A stretch of DNA of 64,000 nt, taken from assembly GCA_022539475.1 (NCBI GenBank), contig VCMS01000018.1, positions 416,589 to 480,588 of the forward strand, written 5' to 3'. The notes below the pieces were generated by a model. It was not told the DNA's origin. It did no database searches and was given only the letters and a program-made list of their open reading frames with translations. Source of the stretch: Gracilaria domingensis. Its lineage: Eukaryota > Rhodophyta > Florideophyceae > Gracilariales > Gracilariaceae. A program made the translations under genes and the position numbers. Below, one piece after another: positions 1-16,401 of this stretch (the stretch's first letter is position 1; each line of letters opens with the position of its first letter).

Positions 1-70
1 GTCTGGAGGTGAAGATTGACGGAATGGTGGCCTACGGTGACGCATGTGGTACAGAAGTGCCAGGGAGGAA

Positions 71-451
71 GTGTTTTGGGAGGTCTCCGGAGGGTGCCAG
101 AATGTGGCCAGAACGTGCCGCGCGGGCGGGGGGGGGTCGGTCGTGTTAGGGTAGGTACCCTAACACGACCGACCCCCCCCGCCCGCGGGCACGTTTTGGG
201 CGATTTTTTGAAAAATGTGCGATTTTATGCCCGCGGGCGGGGGGGTCGGTCGTGTTAGGGTAGGTACCCTAACACGACCGACCCCCCCCCGCCCGCGGGC
301 ACGTTTTGGACGATTTTTGAAAAATGTGCGATTTTATGCCGCGGGCGGGGGGGTCCGGTCGTGTTAGGGTACCTACCCTAACACGACCGACCCCCCGCCC
401 GCGGGCACTTCTGGCCACATTCCGGTGCCTTCCCGGGACCTCCCAAAACAC
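71..451. repeat. Fold-back element with three nested palindromes
   Basis: The outer arms (about 71-120 and 401-451) are inverted copies of each other with few mismatches. Between them lie three near-perfect palindromes at about 121-187, 231-298 and 339-405, each with a G-run arm, a GTGTTAGGGTA core and its inverse. They are separated by two copies of a roughly 42-bp spacer (about 189-230 and 299-340). The structure is that of a fold-back or MITE-like element whose core has been amplified. No coding sequence is visible in it. Confidence 0.85.
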
Positions 452-830
452 GCCGCCGCGCAGTGATTTCGCTACACCCGGCCGCCGGTACGTTGGCGCC
501 GCTGTCCACGTGTATTGGCGGGAGTAGGCTGTACATGGAAGTGAATGAGTGTACTCTTGACTACTATGCAAAGCATTTGAAGAGCATGATTAGAGAACGC
601 GACCATTGCTCGCGTGAGTCATCATTGCGCGAACTCCACGACTCTAAAGCGTACAATCAGCGTGCGAGCGGCCACGGACAGGACACGGACGAGACTGGCA
701 GTGCGCTGGGAGGAGCTGCCGAAAGCGGGGTGCCCAGCGTAAGTCGCCTTTAAAGGCTCGCCTCCGTTGTTGTATCGTCCAGAGCGAGCGTATTGTTGAT
801 ATACACCTTTCACTGCAATAGCTGTTCAAC

Positions 831-1526
831 ATGAAGCCAACTCGTGTTCGAAAGCGTACGCAAAGCGTGACTCCTCGCACTCGGCGGAGCACTCGATTAT
901 TGCAAGGTGGAATGCGGGTTTCTCTGCAGATGGATATTGAGGATGAAGGAAAGGTGATAGTCGGGGAAGCGTTGTTGCATGGAATTGGAAGTGTTCTACG
1001 CCGCGAGTTGCACGGGAAGCAATTGGACCCAGGTCTTGTGGTGGTTCATAATATTCTCATCAGTCGAAGCGGTCAGACGTTCTACCCTTACCGGGCGGAG
1101 GGCCTGGATCTTCCACAATATATCCAGGATCTCCGGACGGCCGCTCCTTGGGATGAGAAAATGATGGAACCGGTGGCAGCCAGCATTCCGGCGTCGAAGC
1201 GAGGAACGGTGAGCGCTATGAGTGAGGTGATGACGCCGACAAGCCGCACGGAGCCAATTCGAAGTTCATCAACACCGAGAGGTAGCGCATCAGTAGCACC
1301 TCCGCGGGCAGGTCCGTCGTCTGTTACGAAGCGGTCTATGGAGACGAGAGCATCCCCAGCTACGAAGCGGACAGGTCAAACAAAGTCTACCTCCGCTACG
1401 AAGCCCACTGCGTCGAAAAGGGCTTCTCCTGCGATGAATCAGACCGTCGACACAAGGGGACTTCTGCGTCGAAACAGACGGTTCAGCAGGGGACGGCTGT
1501 GCAAGAGGAGGAAGATGAGATCATGA
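831..1526 (+). CDS. N-terminal part of ParB-like module, Lys/Ser/Thr-rich
   Basis: An ATG-started frame of 231 codons. It opens with a basic Arg/Thr-rich segment, then a folded-looking stretch (about residues 30-110), then a low-complexity tail with repeated S/T-A-T-K units. The tail continues in the next frame just downstream (GTSASKQT is readable in the frame of the ParB-like ORF), so the last 25 or so codons here are probably read in the wrong frame. I infer that this is the N-terminus of the ParB-like protein that follows, separated from it by a one-base deletion, an unrecognised intron or a sequence error around 1440-1465. I do not recognise a family. A TTTAAAGG motif about 80 bp upstream (near 749) could be a promoter element. 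Confidence 0.5.
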   Translation: MKPTRVRKRTQSVTPRTRRSTRLLQGGMRVSLQMDIEDEGKVIVGEALLHGIGSVLRRELHGKQLDPGLVVVHNILISRSGQTFYPYRAEGLDLPQYIQDLRTAAPWDEKMMEPVAASIPASKRGTVSAMSEVMTPTSRTEPIRSSSTPRGSASVAPPRAGPSSVTKRSMETRASPATKRTGQTKSTSATKPTASKRASPAMNQTVDTRGLLRRNRRFSRGRLCKRRKMRS

Positions 1527-2854
1527 AAGGTCCCCTTCCAGACGCGGATGCGCAATCCGCGCAAGGAGCTGGTCCATCTGTACCCCAAACTGCACCAGAA
1601 ACTGCGGAGCAGCAGGACGATGACGTTGTGCTTCTGTCCGCAAGAATGGCACGTTCAAGTGTTTCTGGCGAGCGGTCTGGAACACAAGGGACACCTACTC
1701 GGAGCAAGACGTACAGACGAATTCGTCAGAAGGTACCAAAGGTGAACCTCAATCAGTACCGGATGGTTGTTGTTACTGTTGACATCACTCTGGTGGACAC
1801 TCCGCCCAATTTACTCCGTGGAGTAAGTAAACGCCACGTTGAAGCCCTTGTGAAGAGTATGGAGGAGCGGGGGATATTGCAGTCGATGGGTTCTCCAGTG
1901 GTGGCCTTACAAGATGCTACTACGGGAGAGAGGGATACTGACAAGGGACGCCTAACGAAGAAGTGCTTCATTGTAGATGGTTTGCATCGTCTGAAAGCTA
2001 TACAATATTTGGCAGCGACTGGTGCACCGAAGTGGAAGCGATTAGCCAAGTTTTGGCGTTGCAATCTGCTGATACGAAGAGATGGGAGGCCCATTGGGAT
2101 GAAGGAATTGTTATGTGTTGCTTCGTACCTCAATGAGTCGACGAGTACCATGCGAAGGATGATGTTTGCAGACAAGATACACTCTATAGTTAGTGTGGTC
2201 GCCATTCTAATTGAAGATGTTGAGGGGGTGACGCCGGCAGACGTGGATCCTGCAGAAGTGACAGAAGTGTTGAAGGAGAGCCAACTGATTGGGACTGTGC
2301 AAGAGCGTCAGTACCTGAGATATGCCAATGTCGCCCTGCAACTCATGTCTCGTGAGGGAATGCTGGCCCATTTCGAGGATATATGTGAGACTGTGAGTGA
2401 CATAGGTCTCACACATCTGTCCCATACTCCGCTATATGTTTTGGATGCCGAGGAGTTTTCCTTCATTCTTGATTGTCTTCAGATGTTTCTATTGAAGGGC
2501 AAGTCGACGAAGACAAAGCAATGGAAAAGCTTTGAGGAGGTTCGAGGTTTCTTTTATGATAGAGCAGTGTCTCTGTTCCGCGCGGCTAGAGCAGTGAGGA
2601 ATGAACTGAACGAGGAAGAGTCCATGGAAGTGTTCCTGAAACGCGAAGTCAGTCTTTCTGCTCCATCGAATGAAGATGACGTTGAAGACCCAGACAACAA
2701 CGCAGCTGTGTATCAGTTCCTTTTGGGACAAGTTGTGAACTTCAACACTTTGCCGCGTGTTCGGAGCAGGACGAACTCAATTAGAACTGCCACGACTTCC
2801 GTTCAGAATCGATTGCGGACGATGCTCAAGGTAATTCCGCCCCCGCACCAGTGA
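1499..2854 (+). CDS. ParB/sulfiredoxin-like nuclease domain protein
   Basis: A 451-codon frame. After an acidic disordered leader (residues 1-80) comes a ParB-like domain at about residues 88-170: a beta-rich VVVTVDITLV segment, a helical stretch with KSMEERG, and the motif DGLHR at 160-164, which matches the (D/N)G-x-H-R nucleotide-binding signature of ParB-type domains. The rest (180-450) is helical, with a Ser/Thr/Arg-rich end, and I do not recognise it. ParB-type domains outside chromosome partitioning occur as nucleases or NTP-using domains, often in mobile elements; the substrate here is unknown. The frame overlaps the upstream frame and is followed by two further short frames and then by a dioxygenase-like ORF on the same strand, suggesting one functional module or one long broken gene. 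Confidence 0.6.
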   Translation: MQEEEDEIMKGPLPDADAQSAQGAGPSVPQTAPETAEQQDDDVVLLSARMARSSVSGERSGTQGTPTRSKTYRRIRQKVPKVNLNQYRMVVVTVDITLVDTPPNLLRGVSKRHVEALVKSMEERGILQSMGSPVVALQDATTGERDTDKGRLTKKCFIVDGLHRLKAIQYLAATGAPKWKRLAKFWRCNLLIRRDGRPIGMKELLCVASYLNESTSTMRRMMFADKIHSIVSVVAILIEDVEGVTPADVDPAEVTEVLKESQLIGTVQERQYLRYANVALQLMSREGMLAHFEDICETVSDIGLTHLSHTPLYVLDAEEFSFILDCLQMFLLKGKSTKTKQWKSFEEVRGFFYDRAVSLFRAARAVRNELNEEESMEVFLKREVSLSAPSNEDDVEDPDNNAAVYQFLLGQVVNFNTLPRVRSRTNSIRTATTSVQNRLRTMLKVIPPPHQ

Positions 2855-3242
2855 AGCAGTCCGTGACGAAGAGGAGGACTCCCGCTGCTGCTGCTGCAAC
2901 ATCTGCCAGTGAAGAAGGGGAGCCGCGAAGAAGTGCACGAGAACGGGCGCAGGTGAGTTATAGGGAAATTGACACGGCCGAAATCGAGGTGCCATAGAAG
3001 TTCTGGATAGCTCTGAAGAAGAACAGCGGGCTCCGCCGAGGAAGAAACGGAGAAAGACTTTCACACAACAGATGAGATCTACTCTGAACAGCATGACACC
3101 GGATGACCTGATGTCTCAACTAAATGAACATGTGCTGAGAGGAAGGTCGATGAAGGTTCAGTTCGTGGCATTGGGAGAGGGAGCGAATGCAGAGAACGCA
3201 GGCAGTTCTGCATTTGTGGATGACGAGAGCTTCTTTCTGTGA
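2848..3242 (+). pseudogene. Linker frames between ParB-like and dioxygenase ORFs
   Basis: Two short frames continue the composition of the ParB-like gene. From 2848 (frame 1) a basic Ala/Ser-rich stretch ends in RRSARERAQ and stops at a TAG at 2995-2997. From 2991 (frame 3) an acidic and then basic stretch (DSSEEEQ, PPRKKRRK) runs to a TGA at 3240-3242, which overlaps the start of the dioxygenase frame. A CAG-GTGAGT donor-like site lies at 2950-2958, but no acceptor that I could find restores the downstream frame. These look like coding sequence of the same gene broken by small deletions or errors. Confidence 0.4.
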
Positions 3243-4744
3243 CAGTTCCACGGGTTGTCACCGTCGAGAAAGATGCTGCGCCAGACGATCAGCAAGAGAC
3301 AGGTGGGGGGTCATTTGATGACGAGTTACCTACAGCTCTTCCGGAATCTGAGGAGCACGGACTTGTTCGAGGTGACCCATATGATGGCCCACTGAACCCA
3401 TCATGGTGCGGGTATGCCAGGCTGAGACCGCAGGAATGGCAAGGGAAGAACGTAATTGAGCACAAGGACCCCTGGCTCAGAGTCATTCACTTGCCGAAGG
3501 GACATAGGTCGGAGCTGCTAAGTGTCTCGAATCTCAGAGATGTACACCATCTTGTCTTTTGGCACGCTGCAAGGGCTGAACATCGCCTACGGGCGGAGAC
3601 ATTTGGTATGCAGTATCCTCGTACTCGACCGACAGGTATGGATGATGAAGAGGTGCTGTGGGTTGCTGCGAAGGAGCATGACGAATTTGGGCAAATGTTC
3701 TTCGCCCGAATGCAAGCTGAGCTAAGGCAGAATGGATATTGCGTGCTTGATGGCTTTGCGACGGATAATGGTGTCCCTAAATGGGAGGAGTTGGAAGAAG
3801 TTCGGGAGTTCGGAGATGTGTCGGGGAAGTTGGTGGACTTCTTCGAGAATGAGTATGGAGCGATGCCGGATATACGGAAAGGAGAGGAACAGAAGTCGTT
3901 TGTTCAAATAATCAACGATGATGAAGGATGGAAGGACGGTAGCGATGGACCATTTGAGGGGAGAGTGATGTCGACACGTTGGGGTACGGTGGAGAAGCCG
4001 GAGGATAATGAGGAGCTCAGGTGGGTTGTAAGGTCGCGTGCTTTACTTGATGTTCGAATGGGTACAATTGCTGCGGCTTTGGGACTATGGGACAATGAAA
4101 GGGAAGCTGTGAAGATGTACACTCCGAAAACTGGTGGTCGATTTCTGGGGACGACGAGAAAGTGCAAGCGCCAGACGCTGCACACCGACTTCAGTGGTCT
4201 GGTTACGAAGGAAACAATGAATACTGGCAACCCCGGATACTTTGTAATGGCCTCTGGGAAAGAGGGCTTTCCTCTCTGGGTGAGCGCTGGAAGCCATCAA
4301 CTGGTGGGGATGAACAACCAACAGTTGCGAGTGATGTCGGAGGTGTATCCAGCGAAGAAGATAATCATCCCACCGTACTCTGTATTCGTGGGCCGTGGTG
4401 ATGTGACACATGCTGGAGCAAGTGGGAAGGACAAGGTGGATAGGCCCGAGTCTATGGATTTGCTGGTTAGATACCACATGTACATGGTACCAGAGGGCTA
4501 CGCACTACCTGATGCTGTTCATCGGGTGCGGGATTTCCGACCCACGTTTGTCAATGGTGACGAGGAGGAGGAGGCGGAGGATGAACTGTTGTCCGATAAG
4601 GAGGGTGGGGCGGTTGACATGGACGAAGACCAAGTGGTCGTGGAGATTGGTGTGGAAGCGGACGCCGGTAGAACCGAAGTGCTCGAGAGTAGTAGTGATG
4701 ACGATTTGCCAATAATGAGGCTGCGAGCGCCTCGAAGTGGATGA
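3239..4744 (+). CDS. 2-oxoglutarate/Fe(II) dioxygenase-like protein
   Basis: A 501-codon frame; the first codon in this reading is GTG, and the frame is already open from about 3219, so the true N-terminus may lie in the upstream frame. The C-terminal half has the residues expected of a double-stranded beta-helix dioxygenase: HTD (H315 and D317) for the first two iron ligands, H391 in GDVTHAG for the third, and R411 in LVRYH for 2-oxoglutarate. Between them lie a WVSAGSH segment and an IIIPPYSVF strand, as in PhyH/giant-virus-type oxygenases. The last 70 residues are acidic and disordered. The substrate is unknown. The adjacent ParB-like domain suggests nucleic acid or chromatin, and some fungal and algal transposons (Kyakuja-Dileera-Zisupton) carry TET/JBP dioxygenases, but I cannot place this protein in that family. 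Confidence 0.6.
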   Translation: MTVPRVVTVEKDAAPDDQQETGGGSFDDELPTALPESEEHGLVRGDPYDGPLNPSWCGYARLRPQEWQGKNVIEHKDPWLRVIHLPKGHRSELLSVSNLRDVHHLVFWHAARAEHRLRAETFGMQYPRTRPTGMDDEEVLWVAAKEHDEFGQMFFARMQAELRQNGYCVLDGFATDNGVPKWEELEEVREFGDVSGKLVDFFENEYGAMPDIRKGEEQKSFVQIINDDEGWKDGSDGPFEGRVMSTRWGTVEKPEDNEELRWVVRSRALLDVRMGTIAAALGLWDNEREAVKMYTPKTGGRFLGTTRKCKRQTLHTDFSGLVTKETMNTGNPGYFVMASGKEGFPLWVSAGSHQLVGMNNQQLRVMSEVYPAKKIIIPPYSVFVGRGDVTHAGASGKDKVDRPESMDLLVRYHMYMVPEGYALPDAVHRVRDFRPTFVNGDEEEEAEDELLSDKEGGAVDMDEDQVVVEIGVEADAGRTEVLESSSDDDLPIMRLRAPRSG

Positions 4745-5079
4745 GAATGAGATGATTAGTAAATTATGTGTGTCTTGCGAGTATTAAGAGTAGTATACTA
4801 TTACAAGGCTATACATATGAACATAGAAAAGGTGCGGCAGGCTGGTAATTGAACAAATGTCAAACGTCTTTGGTCCAGTTGCGTCTAATTGCAACATGCA
4901 AATGCTCGGTATCGTTAACATCATTGGTGGCACCAGTCAATTCGCAATTGAACATGTAGCGTCCTAACATTTCTGAAACTGCACTTAAGGTTGCTTTTAA
5001 GAGAAGTATGAAACTGAGAAGTCTATACAGTTCCTGTCTATGCGGTACTTGTGGCAGTATGGTGACTGTATCAGGAAAA
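4745..5079. other. Intergenic, no gene seen
   Basis: An AT-rich spacer between the dioxygenase-like gene and the HAD pseudogene. I see no conserved motif, RNA gene or repeat in it. Confidence 0.5.
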
Positions 5080-5955
5080 ATGGCAGAGGAACAGAGAGAC
5101 TTGGCGGAAATTTCACCAAATACCTTGTCTAAGTTCATATATGCCAATGGTTACGGTATATTAAGTTCCGTTGATGGAACGTTGAGAAGAGAAGGAGAGT
5201 CAATTCCAGAAGAAGTTGTGAAGTGTATGAAGTTCATTGACGAACGTGTTGGTTTCGGACTTGTCACAGGGGGTGATGTGGGCGACGTGGAGGGGAAAAT
5301 GGAAGGACTCGGAGACTATAAGTTTGGTGTCTCGGCGAATCATGGAGCTTTCCTGCGTTTCTCTGACGAGAGGGAAATTAAGGGTGCATTCAATGATCAC
5401 ACCCTTGACCACACTGTTGACGGACAACTGTTCCTGGCAAGGGATTTGAATAGGAGGCATGGTATTGTGAATGATGATGACAAGGGGTTCGTGGAGACCA
5501 GAAGTGATAGTGGCCTTCCCAATTTCGTGTACAACAAACTGTGGCAGTGGAAGGAAGAAGTGGATTCTGCTATTGGGGACCTGTTGCAGAAGATGGATGC
5601 GTTTGTTATCTATCCCGGCGATAAAAGTTGCGAAATTGTGGACAAGCGATACACAAAAGGAAGCGGAGGAGAAAATCTTGTGGATAATGAACCGAGATTT
5701 ATTGATACGGATGACGTCGTGACGTTCTGAAGTGCTTTGAGCGACGGGCCTTTGCATGAGGTAGGCGTGTACGGCGTTCATGTCAAAGAAGATTGTATCC
5801 CGGGTGGAGTACACAACCTGTTCGAAAGCGTGGAGGATGTACATTCGACAATTATGTTGGTGGCTCTGTTGTACGGCTACGAGGAAAAGCAGCACGATAA
5901 AACCACCATGATTCATAAAAGGGTATTGAGATATATACGACACTTTTATTACTGA
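5080..5955 (+). pseudogene. HAD phosphatase pseudogene, convergent duplicate
   Basis: A diverged duplicate of the minus-strand HAD gene at 5971-6843, tail to tail with it and only 15 bp apart. Alignment by eye covers the whole length, from the ISPNTLSKFIYANGY region to the C-terminal ALLYGY segment. Two lesions hit catalytic sites. Motif I reads SSVDGTL where the intact copy has SDVDGTL, so the nucleophilic aspartate is a serine. An in-frame TGA (5728-5730) stands exactly where the intact copy has the glycine that begins motif IV (GNASND); after it the same frame continues for 75 codons. Motif II is also altered (VTGGD against ATGRD). The chosen start matches the intact copy's ATG. Non-functional as a phosphatase unless the product has another role. 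Confidence 0.85.
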
Positions 5956-5970
5956 GATCTCATATCATAG

Positions 5971-6843
5971 CTAAGTATTAAAGGCATCGTAGCACTTGAA
6001 ACAAACTCCAAGAGCATTTCTAAACCATTGACACTTGCATTTTCTGTACCCGTACAGTTCTGCCACCCTTCTGATGGTCTCATGCACGTCCTCCACCCCA
6101 TCAACAAGATATGTTACCGCTGGTGGAGGGTCGTCTCCCTTCACATGAACTGCGAGGGTTGCCATTTCATATAGAGGACCATCATTGGAAGCATTCCCGA
6201 AGGCAACGATTAAATGTGTGTCGAACTGCGGGTCGTTTTCAACCAAGGCTAGCGCCCCACTATTTTTCGTGAAACGAATGTCCCCTATGTCACAGTTTTC
6301 ATCTTGAGGGTACGCAACCAGGTTCGGAAAGGATGTCAACACTTTTGAAATACCGGAGTTAGCTTCTGTTTTCCACTTCGACAGTCCATTGTACGTGAAG
6401 TTAGGGAGTCCACTGTCTTTTCTAGTGCTCACCACTGCTTGTTGACGCTCTTCGTGAAGTCCGTGCGATTCATTTAAGGAGAGTGCAAGTCTCTCAAGTT
6501 CGGCTGCACATCTTTCGTAGCCTTCCCTGTCAAGGTCCTGATCAATTTCGGTACCATTGGATAATCTCACCCGTGCGACTTGGTTTCCAGAGATGCCAAA
6601 AGTGTAGCCACCCAGGTGCTCCATGAAACTCTCGGCATCCTCTATATCTCGCCCAGTAGCAATTCCGAAACCAACGCGTGCATTGATGTACTTCATGCAT
6701 TTGACTGTTTCGGCAGGAATGTTCTCCCCAGCTCTTTTCAGAGTACCGTCAACATCACTAATCACGGCGTAGCCATTTTCGAATATTTCGTTAGCCAGCT
6801 GCTGAGGAGTTACTTCTTGGGCTCTAACTTCTGAGTTATACAT
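5971..6843 (-). CDS. HAD-superfamily (Cof-type) phosphatase
   Basis: 290 codons. The N-terminus carries motif I, DVDGTL (D30 nucleophile, D32 acid/base), motif II ATGRD with T63, and the C-terminal motif IV, GNASND (G216 to D221), which would bind magnesium. This order and the length fit Cof-type/sucrose-phosphatase-like HAD hydrolases, which remove phosphate from sugar phosphates or related small molecules; the actual substrate cannot be read from the sequence. The frame is open 26 codons further upstream, but I chose the ATG at 6843 because the duplicated copy aligns from there. No signal peptide. The final 25 residues are Cys-rich (CKCQ, VCFKC), which is not typical of the family. It is the intact member of a convergent pair. 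Confidence 0.8.
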   Translation of the reverse strand: MYNSEVRAQEVTPQQLANEIFENGYAVISDVDGTLKRAGENIPAETVKCMKYINARVGFGIATGRDIEDAESFMEHLGGYTFGISGNQVARVRLSNGTEIDQDLDREGYERCAAELERLALSLNESHGLHEERQQAVVSTRKDSGLPNFTYNGLSKWKTEANSGISKVLTSFPNLVAYPQDENCDIGDIRFTKNSGALALVENDPQFDTHLIVAFGNASNDGPLYEMATLAVHVKGDDPPPAVTYLVDGVEDVHETIRRVAELYGYRKCKCQWFRNALGVCFKCYDAFNT

Positions 6844-7470
6844 GTTTTGAAAGCTTTCGAAAGGGTTCGTTTTGCAAATGGGTGTGGGTATACAAATGAG
6901 AAGGATGTGATTGATGGTCACAAGGTGTTTCGTAGTATAAAAAGAGTCTAAGAACGACCATATACGGGTATTGTAGTACTGTTTTAAAAAGTTACTAGGA
7001 GGAGAAGTTTTTGCATCGATTTGAAGTAAAGAAAGGATGATTTAGTCATAAATTATATGTACGGGTTCAAGTGGGTAAAGAAAACTGTAAATATCTTTAA
7101 CGTGAGCTTAGAAATCAAGAAGAGTAAAACAACCTCCATTACGGGTTGAAACCCATAAAAGGTTTACCTTACTTTATACGGGTGCCCCAAGTAATGCAAG
7201 CGCTTAGTTCTTCAGAAATATCACAATTTTTGTACTTGTTTCGTTACTAGTATCGTGCACTTTAATGATATGGAATGACCATTTTCTATCTAGCAAAATC
7301 TTAGCGAAGTATTAGTGATAAGGGATGTAGGATTTAAAGGGGCATATTTGAACCACAGAAGGACGAACAATATAAGTAATGTAATAGGAACAGGTCATTT
7401 CGATAAAGTAACTTTTATGTTTAACTATCTCTAAAAGGTTTACAACACCGAAAAGTCATGTGTTCTAACC
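6844..7470. other. AT-rich intergenic, no gene seen
   Basis: An AT-rich stretch upstream of the HAD gene and downstream of the reductase relic. It contains a small ACGGGTTGAAACCCAT-type inverted repeat near 7140 but no frame of note. Confidence 0.5.
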
Positions 7471-8373
7471 TCAAAGCTGGGGGAATGGGGAGGGGGATAA
7501 CTTTTCCTTAACAACGTTGACGTAGTTTGTATGAAAAGGAGCGGGGTCACCGCCTACAATGTCTCTTTCTTGGCGGGAAAAGTCGTAGAAGTACGCGTTC
7601 CTAAACTGAAAGTCGGAGAAAGAAGTAGGGAAGCCAACGAGAGTTTTCCCATATGCAAGAAGTCGCCCAACGGTCTCTTCCAGGTTGAAAGTAGTACCTG
7701 TCTTAAGCGAAACTATCTTCAACAGCTCTTTCATTATTGTGAGCACAACCGTACTGCACTCCGTAGCGACTACGTCCATAGGAATGAAACCTCTTGAGGC
7801 CCCGACGATGTTGAACGCTGATAGCCACACGAGCTTCTCATAATAGCTTACGAGAAATGTGTCTTCGTCGACAACCCCGCAAGTGAGACCCATAAACCTA
7901 AACCTGTCTGCAACGTTGGAGGCCCACTTTCCTGTTGCGACAGTGAGACCATCCGGACTTTAAGGAGTGACACCATCCTGCGGAGCTGCGTTTCTTGAGG
8001 GGACACCAACGTATAGGACAACTTTTGAACATGTGTCCACACCGAGCTTCGAAACCAATGGTATGATGTCTCCATTCTGGAAGAAAACGAGATTCTCTCT
8101 GAGCGAATAAGGGCAAGCCTGAATTACGGTCTCCAGGGTGTTCGTTCTTCCACAAACTAGTATCGGTACATCAGAAAGATGAGAGGTAGCAGCCATGCTG
8201 CAGAATTCGTGTGCGGAAATGACCGTATCTTCTTCGTTCGCCAGCATGGTACCTATACGCCCCCTTCCAACAATAACGGCCCGAGTCCTTCGGGCGGGAG
8301 ATGAGGCCTGAGGGACGTCAGAGTATCTGGGACTCGGAGGCGGAGTGGGAGGCATGTCGCACTGGGAGTTCAT
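7471..8373 (-). pseudogene. Ketopantoate-reductase-like gene with one stop
   Basis: A 300-codon frame interrupted only by a TAA at 7960-7962. The N-terminus has a Pro/Ser-rich leader and then a Rossmann dinucleotide-binding start (RAVIVGRGRIG), followed by a VFFQNGD segment matching the (L/F)xxQNG motif of ApbA/PanE-type reductases. After the stop the same frame continues into the helical C-terminal domain (EKLVWLSAFNIVGA), which in that family carries the catalytic lysine and substrate pocket. The family reduces ketopantoate with NADPH. The length (about 300) is normal. The ATG at 8373 gives a sensible N-terminus although the frame is open further upstream. Either a recently inactivated gene or a polymorphism/sequence error. 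Confidence 0.65.
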
Positions 8374-8770
8374 TGCAAGTGTTCGAATGTTTTTGTGTGA
8401 CGATAGAAATGGAAGATGGGGCGGAGAATTGCTGGGGTAAAGAGTGATACTTAAGTAAAAACGGTTAGGAAGCGCAGAACGGGAACATGGTTCACTTTGT
8501 GAAAGTGAGCGAAATGTATGATATGTGATTGTACTGAATGAATGATAGGGCTTGTATGAGACGACAAGCCACAAAGTGTGATGATGTTTTATGAAAGGTA
8601 GGTGGAAGAGTAGAAAGTGTACAATGAATGAAACTGATTTCGAACCTGAGTTGTAAAGTAGTTGTAAAGTACGAGTTACGGCGAGCTTGAATACAGGATG
8701 AAAGGAGCCATTTTGGCTTCATAAATGACGTGAACGGGTTCTATAGCTTCACTTGGATTGCCATAATTAA
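8374..8770. other. Intergenic, no gene seen
   Basis: A spacer between the reductase relic and the epimerase fragment. I searched its plus strand for the missing N-terminal half of the epimerase and did not see it. Confidence 0.5.
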
Positions 8771-9091
8771 AAGGATGGAGTTGGATTGCGCCCGAATACG
8801 TCTATAAAGGTCGTAGAAGCACTTCTGAACGAAGGAGTTGTAGACATGTTATTGTTGATGACGGTGGAGCCAGGGTTTGGAGGACAGGCGTTTATGGAGG
8901 GTGTTCTTGACAAGGTGCGACATGCAAGGGAGTTGTACCCAAGAATAGGGATACAGGTGGATGGGGGTATTGGACTGAGTACTGTGAAAGGAGTAGTGAA
9001 GGCCGGTGCAAACATTTCAGTTGCAGGATCTGCCATCTTTGGCTCGAGTAACCCAGCTCATGTCATAGCTAGTTTTCGAAAGGTTGGTTAG
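8771..9091 (+). pseudogene. Ribulose-phosphate 3-epimerase, C-terminal half only
   Basis: About 105 codons matching the second half of ribulose-phosphate 3-epimerase, the Calvin-cycle and pentose-phosphate enzyme that interconverts ribulose 5-phosphate and xylulose 5-phosphate. Visible signatures are LMTVEPGFGGQ, IQVDGG (with the catalytic aspartate) and GANISVAGSAIF for phosphate binding. The normal enzyme is about 220 residues, so the N-terminal half with the other metal ligands is absent. A TAA lies directly upstream in frame (8768-8770) and no ATG begins the domain. The AG at 8772-8773 could be a splice acceptor of a 3' exon, but no matching upstream exon is visible. I treat it as a 5'-truncated copy; the 3' end is intact. 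Confidence 0.75.
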
Positions 9092-9154
9092 AGATAGTAG
9101 CATAAATTTATTGTTTATTACATTGTTACCTTTACGTGTTATCACGACTATATT

Positions 9155-9242
9155 CTCCGTCTCCATTGGAGATGTATTTCTCTTGTATCACAACCGGGAA
9201 AGGATGTGAGAGAACATAAATATATCCCCAGTGGACGCTGAG
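9155..9242. repeat. Long imperfect hairpin, copy 1 of 3
   Basis: The left arm (about 9155-9194) and right arm (about 9201-9242) pair over nearly 40 positions with scattered mismatches and G-U type changes, around a short loop at GGGAAA. It is the first of three diverged tandem copies with about 125 bp spacing. Confidence 0.75.
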
Positions 9243-9280
9243 AGGGAGGATGAACTACTCTACGTGCTACCATTGTTACC

Positions 9281-9374
9281 CATCCGGTGTCGAGTGGTGA
9301 CATATTCTTTTTTTGTCACAACCCACAAAGGATGTGACGGAAGAAGAACATGCCCCCAGTCGAGACAGAGGGTG
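9281..9374. repeat. Long imperfect hairpin, copy 2 of 3
   Basis: Same architecture as copy 1: TGTCACAACCC in the left arm faces GGATGTGAC in the right arm across a short loop near 9324-9329, and the outer stem pairs TGTCGA with TCGAGACA. The primary sequence differs from the other copies while the pairing is kept. Confidence 0.75.
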
Positions 9375-9406
9375 AGCAACTCTAAGTACAATCACTAGTC
9401 CCTAGC

Positions 9407-9493
9407 TTGCCTCCACTGGCAATATCTTCCTGTTTTGCTATAACCATCGAGTGAGGTTATGGTGGAAGAGAAAAATATCGCCGGTCGAGGCGA
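9407..9493. repeat. Long imperfect hairpin, copy 3 of 3
   Basis: Third copy: GCCTCCACTGGC opposite GCCGGTCGAGGC at the base and CTATAACCATC opposite GAGGTTATGG at the tip. It ends about 230 bp before the start codon of the coiled-coil gene at 9725, so it could lie in that gene's promoter or transcript leader. Confidence 0.75.
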
Positions 9494-9724
9494 GGTGGGT
9501 GGGGACTATGTGAAGAGGGGACAGAGAGATGGCGCTTAAATATTGGAAGGTGCGGAGGTGTACAGTAGATGTTTTGGCGGGAAATGGGATGAGGGAAACA
9601 GGGACAATCATGGTGCTGGATATAGCCCGTGTGGTTGGACAGTGGGGGTGGACAGCACAGTTTAGCTCGATTGCACTGTATCGCAGCAGAAACTTCGATC
9701 CAACTACTACTTCTTTTTCTGAAG

Positions 9725-10654
9725 ATGTCGAACGGATACGTGAAGGATGAGGAGCTGTTGGCGCTGTTGGAGGGGGAGGAGGTACCGCAGACGCCGTCAC
9801 CAAAGCGGGAAGAGGACGTGATTACGGCGGCTGGTCGGATGTCGCAGAAGAAGGAAGTGGCCGATGAAGGAAAGAAGTGTGAGGCGAGGAGAGGGGATGG
9901 TGATGAGGTGGAGAAGGGGGTAGAATTGGAGGTGGAGGGGGTCGCAATGGAGAGAAGGGGTGCGGTGCATCTGAGTCAGTTAGAGGTTGGAGACCAGATA
10001 GAGAGTGGGGGCGGAGAGGGTGACAGGGAGATGCGGTTTGTGGGGGAGATGAAGGCGAGGGTGGGGATGTTGGGGTTGGTGATGAAGGAGCAACTGGACG
10101 ATGGAATTGTGGAGATTGTAACGGAAATGGGCGGTGTGGTGCTGAGTGGGGGTGGTAGTGGTGTTTCGGTTGAGGCGATTTCGAGCCTGCGGAATTCGTT
10201 GTCGGTATTGGGAGTGGAGATGAGAAATCATGTGTACGGGATAGTGGAGTGTGCGGGAAGGGAGGTTGGAGAGTTGCGGGAGGAGAATAGGGTTCTGAAC
10301 GAGAGGTTGGACGTGCTGGAGAAGGAGGTGAAGGAGCTGGGCAAGAGGCAAAGATTGGTGGAAGAGGAGACGGTGAAAGGAGGTGTGGAGGGAAAGACGG
10401 AGAAGGGAAGTGTGGGAAGGGTGGCGGTGCAGAAGGGGTCTCCTGTGACACCGAAGACAAAGGGTGGTGGGGTTGGGGATGGGAAGAGCCGTCTGAAGAA
10501 GAGGCGTAAGGAGATGAAGAAGGTGGTGGAGGAGGTGCCGCGGGAGGGAGTGGGAGCTCCGGTGGTGACTGGGTTTAGGAGTGCGGCGGAGGTAGCGCGG
10601 ACTGCGAAGGGGATTCTGAGGGGACAGGAGGAGAGAAGGATGGGAGGGATTTGA
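9725..10654 (+). CDS. Coiled-coil protein of unknown function
   Basis: 309 codons from the ATG at 9725; upstream in-frame codons belong to the leader and make no sensible N-terminus. The protein starts with an acidic segment (DEELLALLEGEE), has a long charged Glu/Lys/Gly-rich middle and a clear heptad-type coiled coil at about residues 185-235 (EENRVLNERLDVLEKEV), then a Lys/Arg-rich tail (RLKKRRKEMKK) that looks like a nuclear localisation signal. The coding strand is strikingly purine-rich with very few cytosines. I do not recognise a family. The intact 900-bp frame and biased composition support a real gene. It is preceded by the three tandem hairpins. Confidence 0.6.
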   Translation: MSNGYVKDEELLALLEGEEVPQTPSPKREEDVITAAGRMSQKKEVADEGKKCEARRGDGDEVEKGVELEVEGVAMERRGAVHLSQLEVGDQIESGGGEGDREMRFVGEMKARVGMLGLVMKEQLDDGIVEIVTEMGGVVLSGGGSGVSVEAISSLRNSLSVLGVEMRNHVYGIVECAGREVGELREENRVLNERLDVLEKEVKELGKRQRLVEEETVKGGVEGKTEKGSVGRVAVQKGSPVTPKTKGGGVGDGKSRLKKRRKEMKKVVEEVPREGVGAPVVTGFRSAAEVARTAKGILRGQEERRMGGI

Positions 10655-11038
10655 AGCCGTTTTGGGGCGAGGCGGGTATACGAGAAGGGGGAGAGTTGTG
10701 CACCTGACTTCTACAAAATGAACGCGTGATGGGCGAGAAATGGGTAAATAGCGGGGGTGGTGTGGACTGGGAAGAAGTGATGGGATGATTGAGGTGGGAT
10801 GAGTTGCGATTGGCATTGCAACATGGGAGAAAATGGAAACGCAAACTAGCACGAGTGCAGTTTTGAGAGAGGGTCGCGGAAAAGAGTGAATGGGGTGGGG
10901 CGGCGAAGTAGAACCTCTACAAAAACTAGGGGACCCAAGAACTAAACTGCGCGAGATGGAATTTAATATTCCAAAATTTCTTGATTTTTTGAGTGCCAGC
11001 CTCTGCTACCCCCTCGCGCGCCCCAAATAGACCCAAAA
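10655..11038. other. Purine-rich then mixed intergenic
   Basis: The G/A-rich composition of the preceding gene continues to about 10900 without a coding frame; after that the base composition changes. This change may mark the edge of the piggyBac insertion. Confidence 0.4.
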
Positions 11039-12119
11039 CTAGCTTAGTTTCCAAAGCGAACAGACTATATTCCACTTTGCAGAACACAGACGATACAATT
11101 GGCGCGCAAGGAGGTGGCGCGTGTAGAAGTTGTCCATAACGATGAGCCGCCCATTCGTCGGTGTGGGATGCAGCTTTGTTTGGTGCGCAACCTGTGCGCA
11201 CCACAATGCAGAGGCGGAGGATTTGGCTACAGTACCATCTTCTTTGCGTTCCACTGGGCCACGCATATTCCGAAACACATTTGTGTATCTCTGAACGGGG
11301 CTTTGGCCTGATCGATTTCCAGATCCATTATCTTGCAGACTGTGCGAGTATGCGTGAGACCACCCTACAACGGCATAAAACCTAATGCCGAACTTTACGG
11401 GCTTCGATTTCATGTAGGACTTAGCACTGGTTCGCCTCTTGCAGCGAACTGTATTTTCATCGAGTGTACTAACACCGACAGGGACCGCGAGTGTAGCGCA
11501 ATTCCTAGTAAAATGTTCGAGCAGCTGCCGGCTGTGCCACAACGGATCACACAAGGCAAACTCATGTTCAGAGGGGGGGTAAAGACGAAGAGCGGCGCGA
11601 ATAGACAAAAGAGTCTCACCCCATCACTCGTTTGAAAAAGGGTATGCCCAGCAGTTTGGAAGAGCACCAGTAGTCTTTCAAGCGGTTTAATCGATGCACC
11701 GATGTTGCCAGTTCTAGTCTTAGATACGCCTTTAGCTCGTCCATTCTGAGGGGCTTTGTTCGTTTTCCGCGCTTCATTAGCTCTGTACTCGTCGATACAC
11801 GCAAACAGTTGAAGAAAGAGCTGTTTAGGAACAAAAAAAACAATCCTAGCTCGTTCTTGTGAGCATAAGATCTTCTGATTAGTGCGCCCTTTTTGAAATG
11901 CAAACCACTCCGTTTGCGCCACTTTGCGCAATAAGGTACTTTTTCGTAAAGCTCGGATTGTTCTGCTGCTTCTAAGGCAGCTATGACGAATTCTTCCTCA
12001 TCGATGTTGCCCCGAAAGATTTTTCCACTACTTTCAAAGTTGCACTCTGCGGTGTCTGGCGTTGCGTTTGATCCAGTTTGCGTGTTTGAAGTGGAATTCA
12101 ATACGGTTGTCTCTGTCAT
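11039..12119 (-). pseudogene. piggyBac-like transposase relic
   Basis: Two consecutive frames on the minus strand. The first (12119 to 11616) has an acidic N-terminus and then LKAYLRLELATSVHRL, LKDYW and GIPFFKRVM, matching the start of the piggyBac DDE domain. After a frame change at about 11610 the second (11608 to 11039) has CDPLWHSRQLLEHF, STLDE (first catalytic Asp region), SKPVKFGIRFYAVV and MDNFYT (second catalytic Asp), all in the expected order. The third acidic residue and the Cys-rich C-terminus are missing, so the copy is 3'-truncated as well as frameshifted. piggyBac transposases cut and paste at TTAA. No terminal repeats were identified with confidence. Confidence 0.75.
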
Positions 12120-15051: not shown

Positions 15052-16401
15052 CTACCTTCTCCTAAGGAGCCCTACTCGCTGGAGTTTATCGGCAATACTA
15101 TCACGCAAATCTGATCTTTCCCTCCGCCTATTTCTGGATCTCATGTTGTGTCTCTCCATATGAAAGAGATCTTGAAAGTGAATTACAGGAACACCTGAAA
15201 CAAAGTTTTCTTCATGATGTGGAGGCACTTCGAAGGCATCACTGTCTGCATTATCAATAATAAAGTTATGGAGCTTGCAGGCAACCATAATAATCAAAGT
15301 GCACTTCGGCAGTGCATACCGAAGCGCGGACCAAAAGATACCAAACCCAGATACAAGTATGCCAAAAGCCTGCTCCACACAGATACGACAAGATGAATGA
15401 TACGCATTTAAACAGTCCTCCTTCACTGACAAGTTCTTTCCAGGATATGGAGTCACAATTCTGTGTTCATTAGAATACGCGTCATCACCAAACACTGCAG
15501 CCGAACTGGGCAGCGTATTACCAGTCAGTAGCTGATAGAGCTCTGTAGCGCAGAACGCCGTTGCGTCGTGAGTCTCACCTGCATGCCTTGCTGATACAAA
15601 GCAAAATTTATAATTGGCTTGTACTGCAGCTTGAACACAGATTGCAAAGAATCCTTTCCTGTTGAAGTACTTTTTAGTATCAGCAACGTAACGTAATTAA
15701 GGACGGCGAATCTCCACAGCAACGCCATCAAGAGCTGCAATAACCCCAGGGAATGGACTTTGTCGCATTTCTTGAAACTGTTCCGCGTTAGCTCTACACT
15801 CTTCTTCAGTTACTGGAAACAAGATACGAGGTAAGCATTTATCCAAAGCTAGAAATGTCTCATTGAAGATACAGTACACAGTTGATTCCGATATGCCGTA
15901 TGACCATCTTACATCTAAATAACTCGCACCAGCAAGTAGACGCATTGTCACGCAAAGCATGACCTCAACAGGAACTGATCGTGCCAAGATGCTTTTATCA
16001 CGTTGTAGTCGTTCGAAAGAAGTAAAACGCAAATGATACACAGTCATGAATTGTGTTTTTGACATTCTGTACATACGTCGAAACATAAAGTCTGTTAGAG
16101 AAGCCATGTGTTGCAGAAAATTAAACCGAGTACTAGCACGGATAATGCGCAGGTTTGGACGATCGTCATTAGAGAAAGATGCTGCAGCAGCACATAAGAT
16201 TGAGCATAAAGTATGTAAACAAACTTGATGCTTATAGTCTTTTTCCTGTATATGGCAGCGCTCACGACGTTTTCGACAGAGCAGAGGTGGGCTTCTCATC
16301 GTGTAAGAGGTGAAGACAGACATACTGAATCTTTTCGAAGTGGGATCTGTTGATGAGTGCACACGATAGACGTTCACAAATCCGCGGAACTCATGTAACA
16401 A
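15052..16401 (-). pseudogene. PIF/Harbinger (HARBI1-like) transposase, one stop
   Basis: A 449-codon frame broken only by a TAA at 15697-15699. Before the stop: the helical N-terminal region with the RLLAGASYLDVRWSYGISESTVY helix-turn-helix and ALDGVAVEI, carrying the first catalytic aspartate. After it, in the same frame: YFNRKGFF, HDATAF, FGDDAY (second Asp) and VEQAFGIL (the glutamate), then the LHNFIID segment and a basic Arg-rich tail. This is the complete DDE order and length of Harbinger transposases, which insert at TWA sites with a partner Myb-like protein. I saw neither that partner nor clear terminal repeats. Apart from the stop, the copy looks young. Confidence 0.85.

Follow-up and report, generated by a model that had tools for sequence, protein, structure and literature searches.

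A cassette of three duplicated hairpins within a giant Plavaka-type DNA transposon of the red alga Gracilaria domingensis

Tandem homologous hairpins are known from clusters of miRNA precursors. A hairpin shape combined with many copies is characteristic of MITEs and foldback elements. For Plavaka transposons of fungi, the sections of the literature drawn on here report target duplications of 2-3 bp and the carriage of TET/JBP genes (PMC12730594), and Plavaka giant repeats are described from Amoebidium in the part of the study cited (PMC11244446). In the literature collection searched, no paper combined Plavaka with hairpin. In this work, we found that a triplet of hairpins in Gracilaria domingensis is an integral part of a DNA transposon of the Plavaka type whose length reaches 22.8 kb. 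The window referred to below is the whole stretch of DNA that was analysed (64,000 nucleotides; contig VCMS01000018.1, positions 416,589 to 480,588), and its features are collected in Table 1.

Three duplicated hairpins in a giant transposon

The region 9155-9493 of the window folds as RNA with a minimum free energy (MFE) of -135.8 kcal/mol (z = -7.25), which none of 100 shuffles matched. In all three pairwise alignments of the units, none of 500 shuffles reached the observed score, and identity in the stem columns is 65-71%; the units are thus duplicates of one hairpin. The original prediction of three tandem diverged hairpins was borne out by this mutual homology and by the fold of each unit (z of -4.3, -6.3, and -6.5), and its dimensions have to be revised. 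Units of 85-95 nt were expected and are longer as measured (about 102, 126, and 123 nt), the third stem extending to about 9513, while the proposed 35-40 pairs per stem came close for hairpin 1 (34) and were too few for hairpins 2 and 3 (47 and 50). When the - strand was folded, the units also beat their shuffles (z of -2.94, -5.14, and -6.65 for hairpins 1-3). A general repeat finder reported no inverted pairs over the stems because these are too imperfect for exact seeds. The Rfam scan of the window at the gathering threshold gave no matches; many miRNA families are absent from Rfam. A covariance model of the units recovered three units on the strand of the element in all 11 hairpin-bearing sources, with weaker matches at the corresponding positions of the opposite strand, and its only match elsewhere in the 15 sources was at chance level (E = 2.4).

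Table 1. Positions of the hairpins and of the transposon features around them (window coordinates).
Feature	Position	Strand	Details
3′ part of giant Plavaka-type DNA transposon	1..11092	+	match to fetched copies
Near-perfect palindrome array	52..457		between the element's two divergent gene blocks
Epimerase relic (ribulose-phosphate 3-epimerase, C-terminal half)	8786..9091	+	PF00834, 5.5e-24, profile 113-198 of 198
Hairpin 1	9151..9252	+	34 pairs; z -4.29 (0/200 shuffles as good)
Hairpin 2	9264..9389	+	47 pairs; main stem 9273-9378; z -6.26 (0/200 shuffles)
Hairpin 3	9391 to about 9513	+	50 pairs; z -6.49 (0/200 shuffles)
Coiled-coil-type ORF	9725..10654	+	309 aa from ATG 9725; 341 aa from GTG 9629
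3′ terminal inverted repeat	11079..11092	-	CGTCTGTGTTCTGC (- strand reading)

The position of the hairpin cassette is fixed, between the epimerase relic and the last ORF of the element, with roughly 1.6 kb separating it from the 3′ terminus. The epimerase relic, which had been proposed to precede the hairpins, was confirmed by its PF00834 match and stops about 60 nt upstream of hairpin 1. A coiled-coil gene had been expected after the hairpins; the ORF is present and open in 17 of the 20 fetched loci, but it matches no Pfam family above cut-off, and one scan confirmed no relatives among viral contigs.

The extent of the element was established from a complete copy of 22,840 bp, of which 356 are N (C20:34726-57565; L040, L039, and L025). 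This copy continues for another 11.7 kb to the left of the part equivalent to the window. For the window's copy, there is an assembly gap left of window position 1, and the 2.3 kb before this gap do not match the element. The 3′ end falls on the same base (window 11092) in all 20 fetched loci, with 17 distinct flanks, and the 5′ start lies within query positions 1215-1227 in 38 of the 40 scored places (34726 for the C20 end). CGTCTGT inverted repeats are present at both ends of the element, and the 5′ ends of other copies open with CGTCTGTCTCTTGC. Both flanks are available for five copies; a putative 2-bp target duplication is exact in two of them (CT and AA), and in the other three the second base alone agrees. 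The C20 copy encodes a Plavaka transposase (PF18759; 2.3e-19, 70.2 bits against a cut-off of 26.3), together with a SET-domain protein (1.5e-8), an N6/N4 DNA methylase (1.8e-16), a HAD-type protein above cut-off (9.5e-12; a second HAD match is weak), and ORFs without an assigned family.

Several other features were observed in the element and the window. The palindrome array has a GTGTTAGGGTAGGTACCCTAACAC-like core, differs in length between copies, and folds about equally on both strands; a 100-bp piece (675-771) is repeated in inverted orientation on its far side. Strong hairpins lie near the 5′ end of the element (L040:2932-3006; element ~421-630), one upstream of the transposase ORF, and the hairpin near the transposase (element ~1661-1810) has no sequence kinship with the three units. 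A 501-aa ORF at window 3239-4744 has a C-terminal HTD ... HAG ... R motif, which by eye we take to resemble a 2-oxoglutarate oxygenase. TET/JBP dioxygenases are among the genes that fungal Plavaka elements can carry. The 501-aa ORF gave no Pfam match, its single-sequence structure model was uninformative (mean pLDDT 32.8), and PDB searches of two cargo ORFs, this one among them, gave no convincing match. Pieces of a DDE_Tnp_4 (Harbinger-type) transposase are located at window 15052-16401.

Copy number, association with the element, and derivatives

A DNA search of the genome (77.9 Mb in 680 contigs) with the hairpin stretch returned 419 candidates, and each of the 40 that were scored shows 99-100% identity across 335 or more of the 339 bases. 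A core pattern common to hairpins 1 and 2 had 766 matches with at most two mismatches, compared with none for the reversed control, which corresponds to some 380 clusters genome-wide (about 383 if each contains two cores). The ORF marker and the 3′ end pattern had 395 and 605 matches genome-wide, respectively (2 and 21 in the controls).

Association was counted from exact matches among those listed on contigs C1-C54, with diverged clusters scored as missing. Of the 64 exact-core clusters listed, 44 are followed at the expected spacing by the ORF marker as well as the 3′ end, 14 by the end only, five by the ORF only, and one by neither. Because at least one of the two markers accompanies 63 of 64, the cluster is part of the element and is no free MITE. 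Numerous dispersed copies, which with target duplications the original prediction had named among the marks of simple MITEs, do exist, yet the listed ones are almost all tied to the element; its notion of a replicated foldback element holds in that the hairpins have been copied hundreds of times, but inside a large transposon. That dispersed MITEs or foldback elements lie in the window by chance is therefore highly improbable in spite of the hundreds of hairpin-form copies, and no flanking repeat was reported around the cluster, albeit by the tool that also missed the stems.

Seen from the 3′ ends, 44 of the 96 listed on the same contigs have both hairpin and ORF marker, 14 have the hairpin alone, 12 have the ORF marker alone, and 26 have neither exact core nor ORF marker (a contig edge accounts for the position of one or more of the 26), so the ends seem able to move alone. 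Two further copies are 89-91% identical to the window's cluster. The copy L056, which was chosen for having the ORF marker and no exact core, has lost window 9273-9383, i.e., hairpin 2; the deletion starts at the foot of the hairpin 2 stem, and hairpins 1 and 3 remain. Slippage over a DNA hairpin is expected to remove an entire stem in this way.

These observations bear on the idea that the hairpins are a DNA-level element, i.e., cruciform palindromes to which the transposase or some accessory protein would bind and which would be required for mobility. The location near one transposon end, the folding of the - strand, and the loss of hairpin 2 in L056, which fits replication slippage, are all consistent with this idea. 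However, 26 of the 96 listed 3′ termini have neither exact core nor ORF marker, the 605 3′-end matches exceed the approximately 383 clusters, such that ends seem to move without the cluster, and the + strand is favoured (see below). The many ends without a cluster make a required transposition site less likely, and we consider the explanation as a whole unlikely.

A second Plavaka family is also present, with a transposase of ~1070-1110 aa that is 49% identical to the first. Its 5′ end (CGTCTGTGTTTCC) was located at C12:65379, and in C12 and C22 such an end is followed, about 25.4 and 26.4 kb further downstream, by a hairpin cluster in the same orientation. These two clusters are 98.4% and 96.6% identical to that of the window. 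The cluster and the second-family 5′ end may belong to one element; if so, the high cluster identity beside a diverged transposase suggests that the 3′ part was exchanged and was not conserved separately over a long time, and the C12 and C22 clusters were thus not counted as deep conservation. A 3′ terminus of this family guessed by pattern had nine matches, compared with eight in the control, and was set aside. First-look candidates for the second family number 84 (C12 and related places), and the same gene adjoins on the other strand.

Shortened and interrupted copies of the first family were also seen. L010, L013, L015, L016, L022, and L027 have a common internal deletion junction, in which window 5519-5642 is joined to 7387, and have kept the triple hairpin. 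The C2 copy of this group, in which both ends were seen, is about 10.5 kb long. In L026 and L028, whose 3′ flank is that of L024, the epimerase relic is interrupted by an insertion of about 0.86 kb whose junction shows a 5-bp repeat (window 8880-8884); the insertion is probably a different mobile element that has nested in the transposon.

Pairing constraint among units and copies

The three units were compared on a structure-blind alignment, in which 33 pairs are common to at least two units. Pairing is maintained in 90.7% of the shared-pair cells, a value reached by three of 500 shuffles. Two-sided changes between units occurred at five of the 33 shared pairs, which 15 of 500 shuffles reached. 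The statement that pairing partners changed together is therefore true of these five pairs, but the effect is modest, given that slid controls yielded up to four two-sided pairs. The comparison was extended to a harsh null model, in which a single perfect palindrome gave rise to every unit by neutral decay (observed unit identity 67%). Under this model, 76.7% of cells are expected to be paired, compared with 83.3% observed, a value reached in 270 of 5000 simulations and in 64 of the 2566 with matched identity. Two-sided changes are expected to number 1.5, compared with five observed (88 of 5000; 28 of 2566 at matched identity).

For the comparison among copies, 34 sequences representing 27 distinct genome places were used (seven loci are present twice); all copies are from one genome, and most fetched loci had been chosen by hairpin similarity. 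Of the 80 distinct changes, 48 fall in pairs, compared with 58.2 expected (24 of 5000 simulations), and 29 break pairs, compared with 38.8 expected (10 of 5000). After removal of the sites used for copy selection, the corresponding values are 46 compared with 54.4 (105 of 5000) and 27 compared with 35.9 (34 of 5000). Based on the results for units and copies, hairpin pairing is under some constraint, and both effects are modest.

Other measures among the copies gave mixed results. Two copies that differ by about 10% hold their fold energy (-163.0 and -157.5, compared with -157.5). After random substitution, the simulations at least as stable as the observed copy numbered 56, 17, 2, 0, and 3 of 300 for L051, L052, L053, L054, and L055, respectively; this test is support only, since a more stable common ancestor could mimic the result, and the decay model and the polarised test of the 80 changes described above were added for this reason. 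Pair retention in L055 was no better than simulated (177 of 300), none of the five diverged copies has a two-sided compensatory change, and the opposites G-T and A-C number only 15 and 7. Variable sites were counted in 18 sequences after three loci with shared flanks had been dropped, and amount to 19 of 365 for the hairpin stretch, 92 of 930 for the ORF, and 48 of 438 for the 3′ stretch. The low diversity of the hairpins was rejected as evidence of constraint because the loci had been picked as the best hairpin matches. None of six element ORFs has a significant synonymous excess among recent copies (30 compared with 28.9 expected for the coiled-coil ORF), and there is thus no clear sign that the element at large has been under selection recently.

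A neutral origin has to be weighed against these results, namely, that an old palindrome was captured, triplicated, and is decaying while being carried by recent amplification. Copying alone accounts for the number of copies, as the 40 scored are 99-100% identical, two-sided changes are few, and one copy has lost hairpin 2. On the other hand, pair-breaking changes are fewer than random placement gives and pairing exceeds the neutral-decay prediction, both modestly, and we regard this origin as doubtful.

Strand preference, possible functions, and comparison with known systems

The + strand forms the more stable whole-cluster fold in all six copies compared (-155 to -167, compared with -129 to -141 for the - strand). 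Among single units, the + strand is more stable in 17 of 18, the exception being hairpin 2 of L055, which folds better on the - strand. The tests of folding, homology, and constraint support the view of the triplet as a structured RNA cluster in which pairing is conserved, and we lean toward the explanation that the three duplicated stem-loops act at the RNA level in some way. The cassette would be read in the + direction, in a transcript running toward or into the coiled-coil ORF. Its long stems may be bound or cut by double-strand-RNA machinery (RNase III/Argonaute), as a miRNA/siRNA-type substrate, or they may shape the processing or translation of that transcript, as a structured leader of the coiled-coil ORF; we regard these two possibilities as about equally likely. 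Four genes with a Piwi domain (PF02171) over cut-off and uninterrupted frames of 886-1098 aa were found in the genome, which would allow a Dicer/Argonaute route. DCL and AGO genes are reported for the red alga Chondrus in the part of the study cited (PMC12026948). When the hairpin 21-mers were compared with the remainder of the window and with the initial 9.9 kb of the element, none had a better match than those of one shuffled sequence. A bolder proposal, which appears quite improbable, is that the cassette is the transposon's own source of small RNA or dsRNA and that, with the SET and DNA methylase genes, it manipulates RNA- and chromatin-based silencing of the host.

If transcribed, the cassette would represent a structured RNA that a giant DNA transposon, present in hundreds of copies, maintains under selection. 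The same element carries chromatin- and DNA-marking genes. Whether large DNA transposons encode RNA-level countermeasures or self-regulation would thereby become testable. It also provides a defined and abundant element for the biology of giant transposons outside fungi.

Compared with known systems, the triplet is similar to clusters of miRNA precursors in its tandem homologous hairpins, here of ~100-125 nt with 34-50 pairs in long imperfect stems. It differs from them in its location inside a transposon and in that no targets were found in the stretch searched. Unlike MITEs, the hairpins do not stand as independent short insertions, since 63 of the 64 listed clusters accompany the large element. 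Tyrosine recombinases make up many of the genes in the giant repeats of Amoebidium, and the part of that report cited here mentions no hairpin cluster (PMC11244446). The closest match is Plavaka (PF18759; CMCT clade), with which the element shares a transposase above cut-off, terminal inverted repeats, and extra genes. The fungal termini are TGT..ACA or CATCA..TGATG in the sections drawn on (PMC12730594), compared with CGTCTGT..ACAGACG here; as the former mark two fungal lineages and not the whole family, we claim only a Plavaka-type element. Relative to those fungal Plavaka, as far as these sections describe them, the present element is distinguished by its length of 22.8 kb and its hairpin cassette.
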